This document shows, one piece after another, positions 25,541 to 29,655 of a stretch of 43,964 nt of DNA. How positions within the stretch are numbered: position 1 is the stretch's first letter; each line of letters opens with the position of its first letter. Source of the stretch: Caryophanales bacterium. GTDB taxonomy: Bacteria; Bacillota; Bacilli; Exiguobacteriales; Exiguobacteriaceae. Made by a program: the position numbers and the translations under genes. The notes beneath the pieces are model-generated. The model made no database searches. It was given only the letters and a program-made list of their open reading frames with translations, and was not told the origin of the DNA. The DNA lies in the NCBI GenBank assembly GCA_902362975.1, contig CABIYO010000022.1:1-43964 (forward strand), in the 5' to 3' direction.

Positions 25541-25915
25541 ATGAACGGACGTAATCCGATGGATCGACAACGACGCATTCGAGCGCTAGATGAGCGTAGA
25601 GAACAGCTAGAAAAAGATACACATCGCCGACGAGTTCATCTTCGACGTCGTTTGGCGGCAGCTTCTCTCCTGTTTTTATTTGTCATGGTGTTGATTGGAC
25701 AGAGTTACTTCTCGAAAGTGGGATACGTATCGGACCAGCAACAAGCTTACGCACAAGCGAAAGTGGAGTTGCGTGAACAGCAGGCAGAACAAGATGAGTT
25801 GAAAGAGCAAGTGGAACGGTTGCAGGATGAGGATTATATCGCGAACTTAGCGCGAAACGAACTGCTTTTCTCTAAAGATGGGGAGATTATTTTCTACTTC
25901 TCCCCAGAGGAGTAA
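25541..25915 (+). CDS. divIC: cell division protein DivIC (FtsB-like)
   Basis: A 124-residue bitopic membrane protein: a basic cytoplasmic N-terminus (residues 1-38, rich in Arg), one membrane helix (about 39-57, LAAASLLFLFVMVLIG), then a coiled coil rich in E and Q (about 65-100) and a short C-terminal ENARNELLF-type segment (YIANLARNELLFSKDGEI). It joins FtsL and DivIB at the division site. AGGAGGGGG lies upstream of the ATG. It follows rqcP by 42 bases, and an imperfect palindrome (CTTAATGTATTAAG) lies in that gap. Confidence 0.93.
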   Translation: MNGRNPMDRQRRIRALDERREQLEKDTHRRRVHLRRRLAAASLLFLFVMVLIGQSYFSKVGYVSDQQQAYAQAKVELREQQAEQDELKEQVERLQDEDYIANLARNELLFSKDGEIIFYFSPEE

Positions 25916-25924
25916 GTCGGTTCG

Positions 25925-25953
25925 TTGACCGTTAGGGAAACGACTCGTATAAT
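25925..25953 (+). promoter_or_regulatory. yabR promoter (sigma-A type)
   Basis: TTGACC (25925-25930), 17 bases, perfect TATAAT (25948-25953). It starts 9 bases after the divIC stop; the leader is about 30 bases. Confidence 0.8.
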
Positions 25954-25990
25954 TAGAAAGAATCAATCAAAAAAAGGAGTACATTATTTT

Positions 25991-26494
25991 ATGTCAATTG
26001 AAGTAGGAAGCAAGGTACAAGGTAAGGTTACAGGGATTACGCATTTTGGAGCGTTCGTCGAGCTCCCAAATGGCAAGACAGGATTAGTACACATCAGTGA
26101 AGTGGCAGACTCTTACGTCAAAGACATTAATGAAGTGTTGACAGTCGGTCAGGAAGTCACGGTAAAAGTGTTAAACGTCGAAAATGATGGGAAAATCGGG
26201 TTGTCCATCAAGAAAGCAGTCGACCGTCCTGTAAGCGAACGCCCTGAGCGTCCAGCTGGTGAGCGTTTCTCTCGTGGCCCACGTCCAGGTGGCCCAGGTC
26301 AAGGTGGTCCACGCGGTGGTGGCGGTCCACGCGGTGGCGGCCCACGTGGTGGTGGTCGTCGTGAGCAACGTCGTGAACCAGAAACATTCGATACATTGAT
26401 GAGTAAGTTCTTGAAAGATAGCGACGAGCGTCTTTCGACGTTGAAACGTCAAACAGACTCAAAACGCGGTGGACGCGGAGCCAAGCGCGGGTAA
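25991..26494 (+). CDS. yabR: S1 RNA-binding protein YabR with RGG-rich insertion
   Basis: A 167-residue protein. Residues 4-75 form one S1 domain (GSKVQGKVTGITHFGAFVEL, HISEVADSYVKDI). Residues 80-128 are a low-complexity segment rich in G, R and P, with three PRGGG units (RGG at 108-110, 114-116 and 119-121). The last ~38 residues (FLKDSDERLSTLKRQT and a KRGGRGAKRG end) match the Bacillus tail. As I recall it, the B. subtilis YabR lacks most of the glycine-rich part. The ATG at 25991 follows AAGGAG with a long 11-base gap; in-frame codons upstream have no homology. It probably binds RNA or ribosomes. Confidence 0.9.
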   Translation: MSIEVGSKVQGKVTGITHFGAFVELPNGKTGLVHISEVADSYVKDINEVLTVGQEVTVKVLNVENDGKIGLSIKKAVDRPVSERPERPAGERFSRGPRPGGPGQGGPRGGGGPRGGGPRGGGRREQRREPETFDTLMSKFLKDSDERLSTLKRQTDSKRGGRGAKRG

Positions 26495-26550
26495 TCCTTC
26501 GTATACCAATTAGCTTCTACTCGTAACCATATAGGTCTTGTAATGAGACG

Positions 26551-26583
26551 AGCCATGAACATTTTTGTTTATGGCTTTTTTTC
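26551..26583 (+). terminator. terminator 1 after yabR
   Basis: AGCCAT-ga-AC pairs with GT-tt-ATGGCT, loop ATTTTT, then seven T. Confidence 0.8.
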
Positions 26584-26604
26584 TGTTAAAAAATTTTATA
26601 AAAA

Positions 26605-26628
26605 ACAACTAAAAGAGTTGCTTTTTTT
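26605..26628 (+). terminator. terminator 2 after yabR
   Basis: CAACT/AGTTG stem with a 5-base loop (AAAAG), followed by CTTTTTTT. It doubles the stop before the yhgE-like gene. Confidence 0.65.
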
Positions 26629-26696
26629 CGAGGAAGAGAGCAAAATAGGGAACATGAAAAAATAGTTATGTTTTATAAGTGAAGGTGGAGAGAAAA

Positions 26697-29309
26697 ATGA
26701 ATGGATGGAAACTGTGGACGGCGGAGTGGCGAAGTATCTTTAAGAACCCACGTGTGTTGGTTCCGATTCTCGCAGTCGCACTCGTACCGTTAATGTACGC
26801 CGGTATGTTCCTATGGGCTTTTTGGGATCCGTATGGACAGATGAAAGATTTGCCGGTCGCCATCGTCAATGAAGACAAAGGGGCAACGTTTGAAGGAGAG
26901 TCGCTTGCAATTGGAGATGACCTCACTGATAAGCTGCTGGATTCAGAGGCGTTCAAGTTCGTCGAAACGACGAAGAAAGAAGCGGAATCTGGACTGAAAG
27001 ACCATGACTACTACATGGCGATCGAGATTCCAGAAGACTTTTCAGAAAAAGCAACGACTGCTTTAGATGAACATCCGGAGCAACTCGAACTGAAGTATAT
27101 CGCAAATGAATCGTATAACTTCTTAGCCGCACAAATCGGTGGTTCCGCGATGGAACAAGTCAAAGCGGAACTGTCGACCGAAGTCTCGAAACAGTACGTC
27201 AGTGCGTTGAAAGACGGATTGAATGATGTGGCAGACGGACTCGGTGAGGCCGCAGACGGTGCAGCGACACTTGCGGACGGCTCAACGTCAGCAAAAGACG
27301 GTGCCGTCAAACTGGCGGACGGGACGAAGCTTCTCGCTTCGAAACAACGTGAGCTCGCAGATGGAGCAAGCCAATTAAACAATGGGATGATTCAGTTGGC
27401 CGATGGTTCATCTGAACTCGCGGATGGGACGAAGCTTCTCGCTTCGAAACAACGGGAACTGGCGAATGGAGCAAGTCAATTACGTGATGGTGTTTCGCAA
27501 TTGGCTGATGGCTCATCTGCACTTGCGGATGGCAGTCAACAAGTATACGAGGGCTCAGCCTCACTTGCGGACGGAGTCCATCGTGTCAGCGTGGGCGCTT
27601 CTGCCTTACAAGGCGGGACGAGCCAACTCGTTGACGGAACAGGAGCGTTCGCGTCTAAGCTAGATGAGCTGCACACAGGTGCGAAAACATTGAACCAAGG
27701 CGTTCAAGACCTTGCTGCCGGCATCGAGCGTTCGAAAGAGGGGGCATCTGCATTACAGGATGGTGCCACAAAACTCACAGGAGCGTTGACTCAGGCGAAG
27801 GATGGAAACGCGGCACTTGTTGCGGGTCAAACAGACGTGATCAATGGGATCGGACAAATGAAGTCTGAATTGACTGCGAAACAAGATGAGCTGATTGGAC
27901 AATTGACAGCACTCGCTGAGTCGGGACAATCGGCATCACCTGAAATGCTTCAAGCCATCGCGGCACAATTGAGCGAAGGGAAGCAAGAGACGGCGGCCGG
28001 GTTTGATCAACTATCCGCTGGCGCGACGAAAGTGAAAGAAGGACAGGTCGCACTTGGTGCAGGTCTTGATCAGGCAGGTACAGGTGCAAACAAACTGTCG
28101 ACTGGACTTTCTGACTTGAGTGCCGGTCAAACGAAATTGGCCGAAGGTGCGAACGCGTTGGCAAGTGGTTCAAGTCAAATCGAGCAAGGTACGCAAACGG
28201 CAGCCAATCGTTCTCAAGAACTCGTGTCGGCGAGTGCGAAGCTCAATCAAGGCGCGATACAACTTCAAGATGGGACAACTGAGCTCGCCTCTGGAAGTGA
28301 CAAGCTTGTAGATGCGACTGGACAGTTGTCTGAAGGTAGCGAAAAGCTTGCGGATGGAGCGAAGAGCGCAAGCGCCGGTACAAGTGAATTGGTGAATGGT
28401 GCGAATCAGTTAGCGGATGGTGGTCAAAAGCTGCAGTCAGGAAGTCGTGAACTGGCCGAAGGCGCGAAGAGTGCTGGAGCCGGAACGAGCAAGCTGACGG
28501 ATGGTGCGAATCAGCTCGCAAATGGTGGAGAAGAACTTTCAGAAGGTAGCGGTGAACTCGCTGACGGTATGAAGGAGCTCGCATCAGGTAGTGAGGAACT
28601 TCGTGACGCCTTAGTGAAAGGTGCGAAAGATGCAGACATCGGTTTAACGGATGACAACGTCGAGATGATGGCCGATCCAGTGTCGCTCGTCGACAACTCG
28701 ATTCACGAGGTGCCAAACTACGGTACTGGATTCGCTCCATACTTCATGTCGCTCGGACTTTTTGTTGGGGCACTCCTTCTCTCGATCGTTTATCCGTTAT
28801 ACGATCCAGCAGGACGTCCGAAACGTAGTCTATCGTGGGTATCGTCGAAATCTGGTGTCCTCATGGTCGTCGGATTCCTGCAAGCATTGATTCTCGATGT
28901 GGCGATGGTGCAATTGCTCGGTCTTGAAGTGAGCGAACCGTTGAAATTCTTCGGTTTCAGCTGGTTGACGAGCATCACGTTCCTCTTTATCGTACAGTTG
29001 CTCGTGACAACACTCGGAAACCCTGGACGTTTCGTGGCAATCGTCTTGTTGATTTTACAATTGACGACGTCAGCCGGGACGTTCCCACTTGAATTGATTC
29101 CAAGAGCGTTGCAACCGTTCAATGCACTGCTTCCAATGACGTATACGGTTGCCGGATATAAGGAAATTATATCGTCAGACGGTGCGCAGTATTTGCAGAT
29201 GGCGACAACCTATTTAGTGTTTGTGGCAGCCGGATGCTTTGTCTTACTATGGGCTTACTTCCGGATTGCATGGAAGAAAAAATATCATCGAGTCGCATCA
29301 GAAGCATGA
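26697..29309 (+). CDS. YhgE/Pip-family membrane protein with long heptad stalks
   Basis: An 870-residue protein. N-terminal helix (about 20-45, VLVPILAVALVPLMYAGMFL) and a conserved extracellular start (LPVAIVNEDKGATFEG) are typical of the YhgE/Pip (phage infection protein) family, related to the ABC-2 permease fold. Residues 171-387 are 31 unbroken heptads of the type LxxGxxx, 388-438 a linker without them, and 439-641 a further 29 heptads. Five membrane helices follow (about 680-865) resembling an ABC-2 membrane domain. GGTGGAG lies 6 bases before the ATG at 26697. Relatives include a lactococcal phage receptor and EsaA of type VII secretion; no other T7SS gene is seen. The function here is unknown. 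Confidence 0.85.
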   Translation: MNGWKLWTAEWRSIFKNPRVLVPILAVALVPLMYAGMFLWAFWDPYGQMKDLPVAIVNEDKGATFEGESLAIGDDLTDKLLDSEAFKFVETTKKEAESGLKDHDYYMAIEIPEDFSEKATTALDEHPEQLELKYIANESYNFLAAQIGGSAMEQVKAELSTEVSKQYVSALKDGLNDVADGLGEAADGAATLADGSTSAKDGAVKLADGTKLLASKQRELADGASQLNNGMIQLADGSSELADGTKLLASKQRELANGASQLRDGVSQLADGSSALADGSQQVYEGSASLADGVHRVSVGASALQGGTSQLVDGTGAFASKLDELHTGAKTLNQGVQDLAAGIERSKEGASALQDGATKLTGALTQAKDGNAALVAGQTDVINGIGQMKSELTAKQDELIGQLTALAESGQSASPEMLQAIAAQLSEGKQETAAGFDQLSAGATKVKEGQVALGAGLDQAGTGANKLSTGLSDLSAGQTKLAEGANALASGSSQIEQGTQTAANRSQELVSASAKLNQGAIQLQDGTTELASGSDKLVDATGQLSEGSEKLADGAKSASAGTSELVNGANQLADGGQKLQSGSRELAEGAKSAGAGTSKLTDGANQLANGGEELSEGSGELADGMKELASGSEELRDALVKGAKDADIGLTDDNVEMMADPVSLVDNSIHEVPNYGTGFAPYFMSLGLFVGALLLSIVYPLYDPAGRPKRSLSWVSSKSGVLMVVGFLQALILDVAMVQLLGLEVSEPLKFFGFSWLTSITFLFIVQLLVTTLGNPGRFVAIVLLILQLTTSAGTFPLELIPRALQPFNALLPMTYTVAGYKEIISSDGAQYLQMATTYLVFVAAGCFVLLWAYFRIAWKKKYHRVASEA
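27315..27524 (+). repeat. 105-base tandem duplication in the heptad region
   Basis: Two copies, 27315-27419 and 27420-27524, each encode five heptads starting ADGTKLL or its equivalent. A 29-base block is identical (27321-27349 and 27426-27454). A second, older-looking five-heptad duplication is seen at protein level near residues 551-620. Confidence 0.85.
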
Positions 29310-29323
29310 TGTAAAAACGGTAC

Positions 29324-29368
29324 AAAATCGTGTATAGTGGTTAAGACGACACTATGCACGATTTTTTT
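29324..29368 (+). terminator. terminator after the YhgE-like gene
   Basis: A 16-bp stem (AAAATCGTGTATAGTG with CACTATGCACGATTTT, one G-T pair) with a 10-base loop and a T run. Confidence 0.9.
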
Positions 29369-29389
29369 CTTAAAAATATAAAAAAAGAA

Positions 29390-29418
29390 TTGACACTCGA
29401 ATGGCGACTGGTTATTAT
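29390..29418 (+). promoter_or_regulatory. tRNA promoter (sigma-A type)
   Basis: Consensus TTGACA (29390-29395), 17 bases, TATTAT (29413-29418). The same -35 and -10 occur in the second rRNA promoter at 43824-43852. Confidence 0.82.
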
Positions 29419-29449
29419 AGAAAATGTGCTTAGGACACAAAAATAACAT

Positions 29450-29526
29450 GGCGGTGTAGCTCAGCTGGCTAGAGCGTACGGTTCATACCCGTGAGGTCGT
29501 GGGTTCGACTCCCTCCGCCGCTACCA
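29450..29526 (+). tRNA. tRNA-Met (CAT), elongator type
   Basis: A 77-base cloverleaf with acceptor GGCGGTG/CGCCGCT, D-arm TAGCTCAGCTGGCTAGAGC, anticodon loop TTCATAC and T-arm GGGTTCGACTCCC; CCA is encoded. It lacks the three G-C pairs of the initiator anticodon stem and looks like elongator tRNA-Met of Bacillus. A tRNA-Ile2 (modified CAT) is the alternative but fits less well. Confidence 0.93.
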
Positions 29527-29535
29527 TTTTATTTA

Positions 29536-29607
29536 GGCCCGTTGGTCAAGCGGTTAAGACACCGCCCTTTCACGGCGGTAACACGGGTTCGAATCCCGTA
29601 CGGGTCA
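29536..29607 (+). tRNA. tRNA-Glu (TTC)
   Basis: A 72-base cloverleaf: acceptor GGCCCGT/ACGGGTC, D-arm TGGTCAAGCGGTTAAGACA, anticodon loop CTTTCAC (TTC) and T-arm CGGGTTCGAATCCCG. The 3' end reads ACTT, so CCA is not encoded and must be added. It follows tRNA-Met by 9 bases in one transcript, the same Met-Glu pair that I recall at this site in B. subtilis. Confidence 0.95.
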
Positions 29608-29621
29608 CTTAACCTAAGCGT

Positions 29622-29655
29622 AAAGAAGCCATCTCAATCGAGATGGCTTCTTTTG
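29622..29655 (+). terminator. terminator after tRNA-Glu
   Basis: A perfect 14-bp stem (AAAGAAGCCATCTC/GAGATGGCTTCTTT, loop AATC) with TTTTG. It ends 9 bases before the tilS RBS. No separate promoter is seen for tilS, so read-through may feed tilS-hprT-ftsH. Confidence 0.88.

Follow-up and report, generated by a model that had tools for sequence, protein, structure and literature searches.

Among described proteins, lactococcal Pip/YjaE and enterococcal PIP_EF stand closest to the protein considered here, the product of a YhgE/Pip family gene on a 43,964-nucleotide stretch of Exiguobacteriaceae DNA (contig CABIYO010000022.1, positions 1 to 43,964; hereafter the window). Both have the same N- and C-terminal domains and the same xxxLxxG repeats as this 870-residue protein. 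In the passages compared, PIP_EF is described as a shown phage receptor whose phage-specificity region, residues 342–494, lies in the middle of its extracellular part (PMC4999554), and the YjaE dimer as a predicted 360 Å rod in which each monomer folds on itself and a helix bundle forms the outer end (PMC12474359). These passages do not mention for either protein the mirrored-module rule described below. EsaA and YueB, as far as the excerpts go, likewise have a long extracellular part flanked by a single membrane helix on the N-terminal side and several on the C-terminal side; solved EsaA ectodomain structures are elongated dimers long enough to span the wall (PMC10765036), and the same reach is stated for YueB (PMC9863714). 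In excerpts on chemoreceptors, symmetric heptad insertions and deletions (indels) are known for the helical hairpin (PMC5907407, PMC6628036). Already known are the YhgE/Pip family and its stalk-like architecture, rods built as hairpins (YjaE) and heptad indels that occur in pairs (chemoreceptors). The primary papers are reportedly those of Klein 2021 on EsaA, Sao-Jose 2006 on the YueB fibre, and Alexander and Zhulin 2007 on chemoreceptor length classes.

What appears to be new, judging from sequence comparison, is that the YhgE/Pip stalk obeys a chemoreceptor-like rule, with position-matched indels and mirrored modules of unequal length in its two arms. Among the matches listed (titles and abstract starts), we found no report of paired indels or mirrored modules in the YhgE/Pip family. 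The gene starts at the ATG at 26697 and its stop ends at 29309; the alternative first start in the list of open reading frames is a GTG 18 bases upstream. The closest named match to the protein is from E. profundum PHM 11, with 97% identity. Its end domains score well above the NCBIfam cut-offs (203.5 bits versus 96.15 for the N-terminal TIGR03061, 209.8 versus 102.2 for the C-terminal TIGR03062), as does the repeat family TIGR03057 xxxLxxG (174.4 bits versus 18.6, E = 8.1e-53), by which match the heptad repeat is a known YhgE/Pip feature. The parts of the gene are as follows.

26697–29309, + strand: YhgE/Pip family gene, 870 amino acids, stop included; TIGR03061 and TIGR03062 well over cut-off.
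26697–27206, + strand: first membrane helix and extracellular alpha/beta domain, residues 1–170 (from TIGR03061, the first part of ABC2_membrane_3 and the model).
27207–27857, + strand: arm 1, residues 171–387, 31 Leu/Gly heptads; predicted helical in both models bar one short break each.
27312–27521, + strand: tandem duplication of a 35-residue module of arm 1, residues 206–275, the copies sharing 79% DNA identity; one copy in the 800-residue class.
27858–28010, + strand: hairpin crown, residues 388–438, without heptad glycines.
27921–27938, + strand: predicted turn between the arms, residues 409–414, the only unwound stretch common to both AlphaFold models.
28011–28619, + strand: arm 2, residues 439–641, 29 Leu/Gly heptads; predicted helical in both models bar one short break each.
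28347–28556, + strand: tandem duplication of a 35-residue module of arm 2, residues 551–620, the copies sharing 68% DNA identity; one copy in the 800-residue class.
28620–29309, + strand: C-terminal membrane domain, residues 642–870 plus stop (TIGR03062), ABC-2-permease-like.

The original prediction described 31 and 29 heptads around a 51-residue segment without them, with a leucine-like residue at position 1 and glycine at position 4 of most units. Position counts, shuffles and TIGR03057 bear this out. Glycine occupies position 4 in 27 of 31 heptads of arm 1 and 25 of 29 of arm 2, and one of L, I, V, M, A or F occupies position 1 in 30 of 31 and in all 29, respectively. In the best phase, shuffled segments average 7.4 and 7.3 glycines and never exceed 13 (5000 shuffles for each arm), against 27 and 25 in the actual arrays. 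The arrays had also been described as being in register; each array does hold a single register, but the registers of the two differ, as the arrays lie 268 residues apart (38 heptads plus two residues). The 51-residue segment had been taken for a tip. It does lack heptad glycines, but it is not predicted to form a separate domain, a candidate rejected because both models are helical up to residue 408 and from residue 415; in the models, helix extends into it from both arms, with only 409–414 unwound. A tip acting as a hypervariable phage-escape region was also rejected. Mean pairwise identity among 34 Exiguobacterium sequences is 0.695 in the crown versus 0.693 and 0.677 in the arms, so that the crown is no more variable than the stalk. 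Compared with its YhgE/Pip relatives, the Exiguobacterium protein has a short crown (51 residues) that is not hypervariable, and we know of no phage that uses it.

The matching of the two arms is seen most simply within Exiguobacterium, where 18 of 19 genomes carry the gene, six in the 870-residue form and 12 in a form of about 800 residues (open-frame lengths); genome G013 gave no match to the 870-residue protein or to TIGR03929. In the alignment, the shorter form is missing exactly 35 residues from each arm. After exclusion of one foreign sequence (L204) and of all sequences below 799 residues, 34 distinct sequences were kept out of 59: 24 lack both inserts, ten have both and none has only one. 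Before the length cut, both gaps were present in 48 of 58 Exiguobacterium sequences and no gap in ten. The arm 2 duplication is the mirror partner of the arm 1 duplication, with a mirror sum i+j of 826; a tandem-repeat program picks up the arm 1 array only and misses the arm 2 duplication. A tree built from the flanking domains, with two outgroup sequences as root and no printed support value, groups the ten long sequences in a single clade with short sequences as its sisters. This placement makes a single origin of the 870-residue form, through duplication in both arms, the most likely.

The comparison was extended across the family with relatives pooled from several sources: 120 listed matches out of 6157 in a protein search, 30 Exiguobacterium loci, 78 named loci, 30 loci of a class-wide family search and 80 hand-picked regions from the same listing. 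Of 495 distinct proteins or long open reading frames (neighbours included), 321 had both end domains and 219 remained after removal of near-duplicates; 29 of these 219 representatives were dropped from the arm-length survey as ambiguous. An automatic crown finder, which takes the longest glycine-free gap, put the crown in the wrong place in several relatives whose crowns are long or noisy, and the main test was therefore based on pairwise alignments of 45 phylogenetically independent pairs of differing length drawn from the 219 representatives. At an interdomain identity of at least 0.45, an arm change was present in 27 pairs and was identical in both arms in 12. Outside the B. cereus group (defined here as protein-search matches bearing its crown motifs, not all of which carry a species name), there were 15 independent sister pairs; the two arms changed equally in 10 of these, whereas permutation gave 1.06 on average and never more than 6, and in no pair was the change confined to one arm. 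Together with the 35 + 35 step in Exiguobacterium, these counts answer in the affirmative the question raised by the original prediction, whether both arms of homologues change in length together. Five gap settings gave equal changes in 8 of 10 to 9 of 9 pairs outside the group at identity 0.5 and in 9 of 15 to 11 of 13 at identity 0.45, and an alternative gap midpoint rule and grouping gave 13 of 27 overall and 10 of 14 outside the group. Position agrees as well as length. In 16 matched pairs with one equal-sized indel of at least seven residues per arm (identity at least 0.3), the height of the indel above the base correlates between arms with r = 0.92 (rank correlation 0.94), and the median height difference is 13.5 residues versus 57 under random placement (p = 0.00015). 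Because the heights match, changes in arm length tend to fall opposite one another.

The arms of the B. cereus group consist of modules of 35, 28, 23 and 21 residues, in which a 23-residue module of arm 1 faces a 21-residue module of arm 2; for this reason, pairs from the group looked like exceptions to equal change. Read from base to crown, 65 of the 84 sequences have module strings that mirror each other between the arms. Among the 20 distinct combinations, 12 do so, compared with a mean of 1.25 (maximum 7) when arms are permuted and 0.37 (maximum 4) when the order within arm 2 is shuffled. For example, [35,28,23,23,28,28] is found with [35,28,21,21,28,28], and [28,28,23,28,28,21] with [28,28,21,28,28,21]. 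Across the 12 mirrored combinations, a module boundary in one arm lies 11 to 19 residues higher or lower than its counterpart in the other. These figures refer to the 84 sequences with clean anchors among 95 parsed; in the other 11 an anchor motif was missed or displaced, and some of them appear mirrored if two modules are merged, others not. The equivalence of 23 and 21 was set after inspection of the data; without it, the number of 23-residue modules in arm 1 equals the excess of 21-residue modules in arm 2 in 79 of 84 sequences. In arm 1 of this group (e.g., P0083), the 23-residue module consists of three heptads plus two residues amid pure heptad modules. The two-residue offset of each such module should change helix packing locally.

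Structure prediction of the monomer, which the original prediction had suggested, gave a helix-turn-helix with long stalk helices in two AlphaFold models, one of the whole protein (40 sequences; predicted local distance difference test score, pLDDT, 68.6; predicted template modelling score, pTM, 0.38) and one of residues 138–650 (41 sequences; pLDDT 72.8, pTM 0.54). Residues 410–414 have a pLDDT below 50 in the whole-protein model. The centre of the predicted turn places opposite residues at i+j = 823, close to the 826 of the mirrored duplications. Sums of the first and last residues from superpositions on chemoreceptors, which serve as rough guides, are 822 or 823 for four rows of one set of eight and between 819 and 826 for four rows of a second set of five. 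A sequence search found no solved structure of a YhgE/Pip stalk. It appears to be new that mirrored indels can locate the hairpin register with an uncertainty of a few residues.

The base of the protein is predicted to resemble an ABC-2 permease (ABC, ATP-binding cassette). In the models, the membrane part matches ABC-2 permeases structurally (ABC2_membrane_3, ABCG fold), whereas in the YhgE/Pip protein the two halves are separated by an inserted stalk of about 470 residues. Foldseek gave a weak match of the domain of residues 1–170 to 3cni, a domain of a putative ABC type-2 transporter (E 0.033), and Pfam and NCBIfam showed no ATP-binding domain in the 870-residue protein. Stalkless YhgE-like ABC-2 permeases of 386–422 residues (L238, L239, L240, L243, L244) lie near TetR, MarR or PadR genes; no ABC ATPase was found near them among seven neighbours tested.

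The antiparallel two-arm helical stalk first suggested from the heptads alone is supported by the covariation of the arms, mostly in equal steps and at equal heights, by the mirrored modules and by the helix-turn-helix models. We propose that an ABC-2-permease-like base, made of the N-terminal membrane helix, the extracellular alpha/beta domain and the C-terminal membrane helices, bears the inserted stalk. Arm 1 would climb from the membrane to the turn at residues 409–414 and arm 2 would return antiparallel to it, placing residue i near residue 820–826 minus i of the opposite arm, with the Leu/Gly heptads probably allowing close packing of the arms. Pairing would be local and specific, so that a module gained or lost in one arm is, as a rule, matched opposite in the other, and the stalk would grow or shrink by paired seven-residue steps of about 1 nm in height per pair. 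We consider this membrane-anchored hairpin highly probable, with confidence decreasing at each added step. The repeat and the paired and mirrored length changes are read directly from the sequences, and the helical turn and the permease-like base are predicted by the models. By analogy with YueB, EsaA and YjaE, the protein would probably dimerize into a rod of about 35 nm that crosses the wall, holding the turn or helical crown at or near the wall surface, about 35 nm out. It may also have a docking or receptor role, and its base could take part in transport.

Several observations weigh against the proposed hairpin. Outside the B. cereus group, 5 of 15 pairs are not exactly equal; these are mostly distant pairs with small gaps scattered near the crown, such as a noisy 70 + 70 change. 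Within the group, pairs are equal in residues in only 2 of 12 cases, change in one arm only in 3 of 12 and in opposite directions in 2 of 12, and 19 of 84 sequences are not mirrored. These 19 comprise 13 of two complementary types and six single forms. The P0065 type (10 sequences) and the P0022 type (3 sequences) have two extra 28-residue modules in opposite arms, and are either unmatched natural forms or the result of one-sided assembly collapse. Some unmirrored forms, on draft-sized contigs, may be collapsed repeats; for P0022 and P0118, member contigs exceed 5 Mb, and these two may be genuinely unmatched. The confidence of both AlphaFold models is moderate, and they break the arms at pairs of opposite places whose heights differ between them (243–247 with 575–578; 284–289 with 533). 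These breaks are probably a bending artefact of the models; spuriously bent coiled-coil models are named as a limit of AlphaFold in the abstract of PMC11676326. The remaining chemoreceptor rows give sums of 747, 805, 805 and 862, and of 788. Finally, paralogues differ in length within a genome, so that a fixed reach is not simply implied.

Four other explanations were weighed against the hairpin. Long heptad arrays often form parallel dimers, and the arrays might not pair within one chain at all, each instead forming a parallel coiled coil with the same array of a second chain, with their lengths matched by selection on reach. Such selection would not match the heights of indels, nor mirror the order of unequal modules; moreover, the two monomer models agree on a helix-turn-helix fold and on the residues of the turn, and a single membrane domain is predicted to anchor the stalk at either end. 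We therefore judge this arrangement very improbable. An artefact, whether from the collapse of repeats in assemblies or from gap placement by the aligner, is barely credible as the source of the matched lengths. Repeats are indeed prone to misassembly, and many unmatched forms of the B. cereus group lie on draft-size contigs; collapse, however, acts on each arm separately and would produce mismatches rather than matches, the result outside the group survives all five gap settings, and none of the 34 distinct Exiguobacterium sequences is intermediate between the length classes.

The other two explanations concern what the stalk is for. It could be a conduit, an adaptor-like tube through which the permease-like base moves a substrate across the wall, rather than a rod that presents its end. 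The predicted ABC-2-permease-like base speaks for this, as does the coiled-coil tube of the MmpS5L5 pump (PMC12501195, excerpt). A TetR-type regulator lies upstream in all four other Bacillales loci tested, and a TetR, MarR or PadR regulator is close by in all five loci tested of stalkless relatives. A regulator beside such a gene is a layout common for efflux genes. Nevertheless, a hairpin or hairpin dimer with small Gly/Leu cores would have no obvious lumen, and neither an ABC ATPase nor a regulator is present among the eight neighbours searched in the window, and we regard a conduit as unlikely. Arm length might instead be a ruler tuned to the thickness of the cell wall. Taking reach as half the interdomain length times 0.15 nm per residue, interdomain lengths of 245 to 665 correspond to about 18 nm to 50 nm, which brackets common wall thickness, and the wall-spanning length given for EsaA and YueB in the excerpts fits the same idea. 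Against it, paralogue interdomain lengths differ in all seven genomes with at least two measured stalked paralogues, by 23 to 155 residues, or about 2 to 12 nm of reach if the crowns are alike: 324 and 353 (four genomes of one genus); 334 and 311; 268 and 366; and 390, 324 and 235. In the eighth genome searched, a single stalked paralogue could be measured, and the lengths given exclude some long paralogues that were not measurable. Because paralogue stalk lengths differ within a genome, wall thickness probably does not fix arm length in any simple way; the simple wall ruler is disfavoured, and we hold it to be decidedly unlikely.

Turning again to the known systems, the N-terminal domain of the 870-residue protein gives a weak match to TIGR03929, with 79.4 bits against a cut-off of 122, and membership of the EsaA family was rejected on this basis. 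No protein exceeded the TIGR03929 cut-off in the 19 Exiguobacterium genomes, compared with one of 14 control genomes. The hairpin of chemoreceptors (methyl-accepting chemotaxis proteins) is cytoplasmic, whereas the YhgE/Pip stalk is extracellular (by homology) and has glycine as the fourth residue of most heptads; B. cereus-group stalks differ further in having modules of 21–35 residues, with 23-residue modules facing 21-residue ones. No chemoreceptor signalling domain was found among the Pfam matches of the 870-residue protein at E ≤ 0.001. PF00015 is present in the precomputed domains of 2 of the 120 listed relatives (P0036, P0110), where it is probably a coiled-coil cross-match.

The YhgE/Pip gene is flanked by a yabR-like S1-domain gene and by tRNA-Met/tRNA-Glu/tilS (window 25925–29643). 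Seven of the eight neighbours searched matched families, namely MurJ/SpoVB-like, yabN/mazG, S4-type, S1-domain, tilS, hpt and ftsH, the eighth (25541–25915) gave no family match, and two tRNAs are near the gene. Type VII secretion families, ABC ATPases and regulators were absent from the matches of these eight neighbours. One further feature lies upstream.

26550–26577, + strand: terminator-like hairpin and T run, between the upstream S1-domain gene and the YhgE/Pip gene.

Terminator-like sites across the region show no excess over chance (3 found versus 2.8 expected). The same stretch in B. subtilis holds spoIIE, yabS and yabT; here, the YhgE/Pip gene occupies the slot where spore formers carry sporulation genes. 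In the distant E. flavidum, the copy (L040, 4001–6358; 44% identity) lies instead near a CAAX-protease-like gene and an ion-channel gene, and the locus is therefore not fixed across Exiguobacterium. In the literature, the name yhgE often denotes unrelated genes.

The family is widespread in the class, with TIGR03061 above cut-off in 218 of 299 genomes in the class-wide family search, and some of its members are phage entry receptors. In the stalk, mirrored indels yield the register of the hairpin without a solved structure, as evolution has in effect already run the pairing experiment. The stalk is a clean natural case of how two distant parts of one gene stay matched, and it bears on what the unmatched forms do and on whether length sets reach or the choice of partner. 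It is possible, though doubtful, that the stalk is a sequence-specific, module-by-module zipper, in which every arm 1 module has a single proper partner in arm 2, even where 23 residues face 21, so that the gene evolves through paired edits at mirrored positions and length serves as a code of paralogue identity. If so, such a length code would, like the length classes of chemoreceptors, block the co-assembly of paralogues in one membrane, and each paralogue would set the height of its own crown above the membrane.
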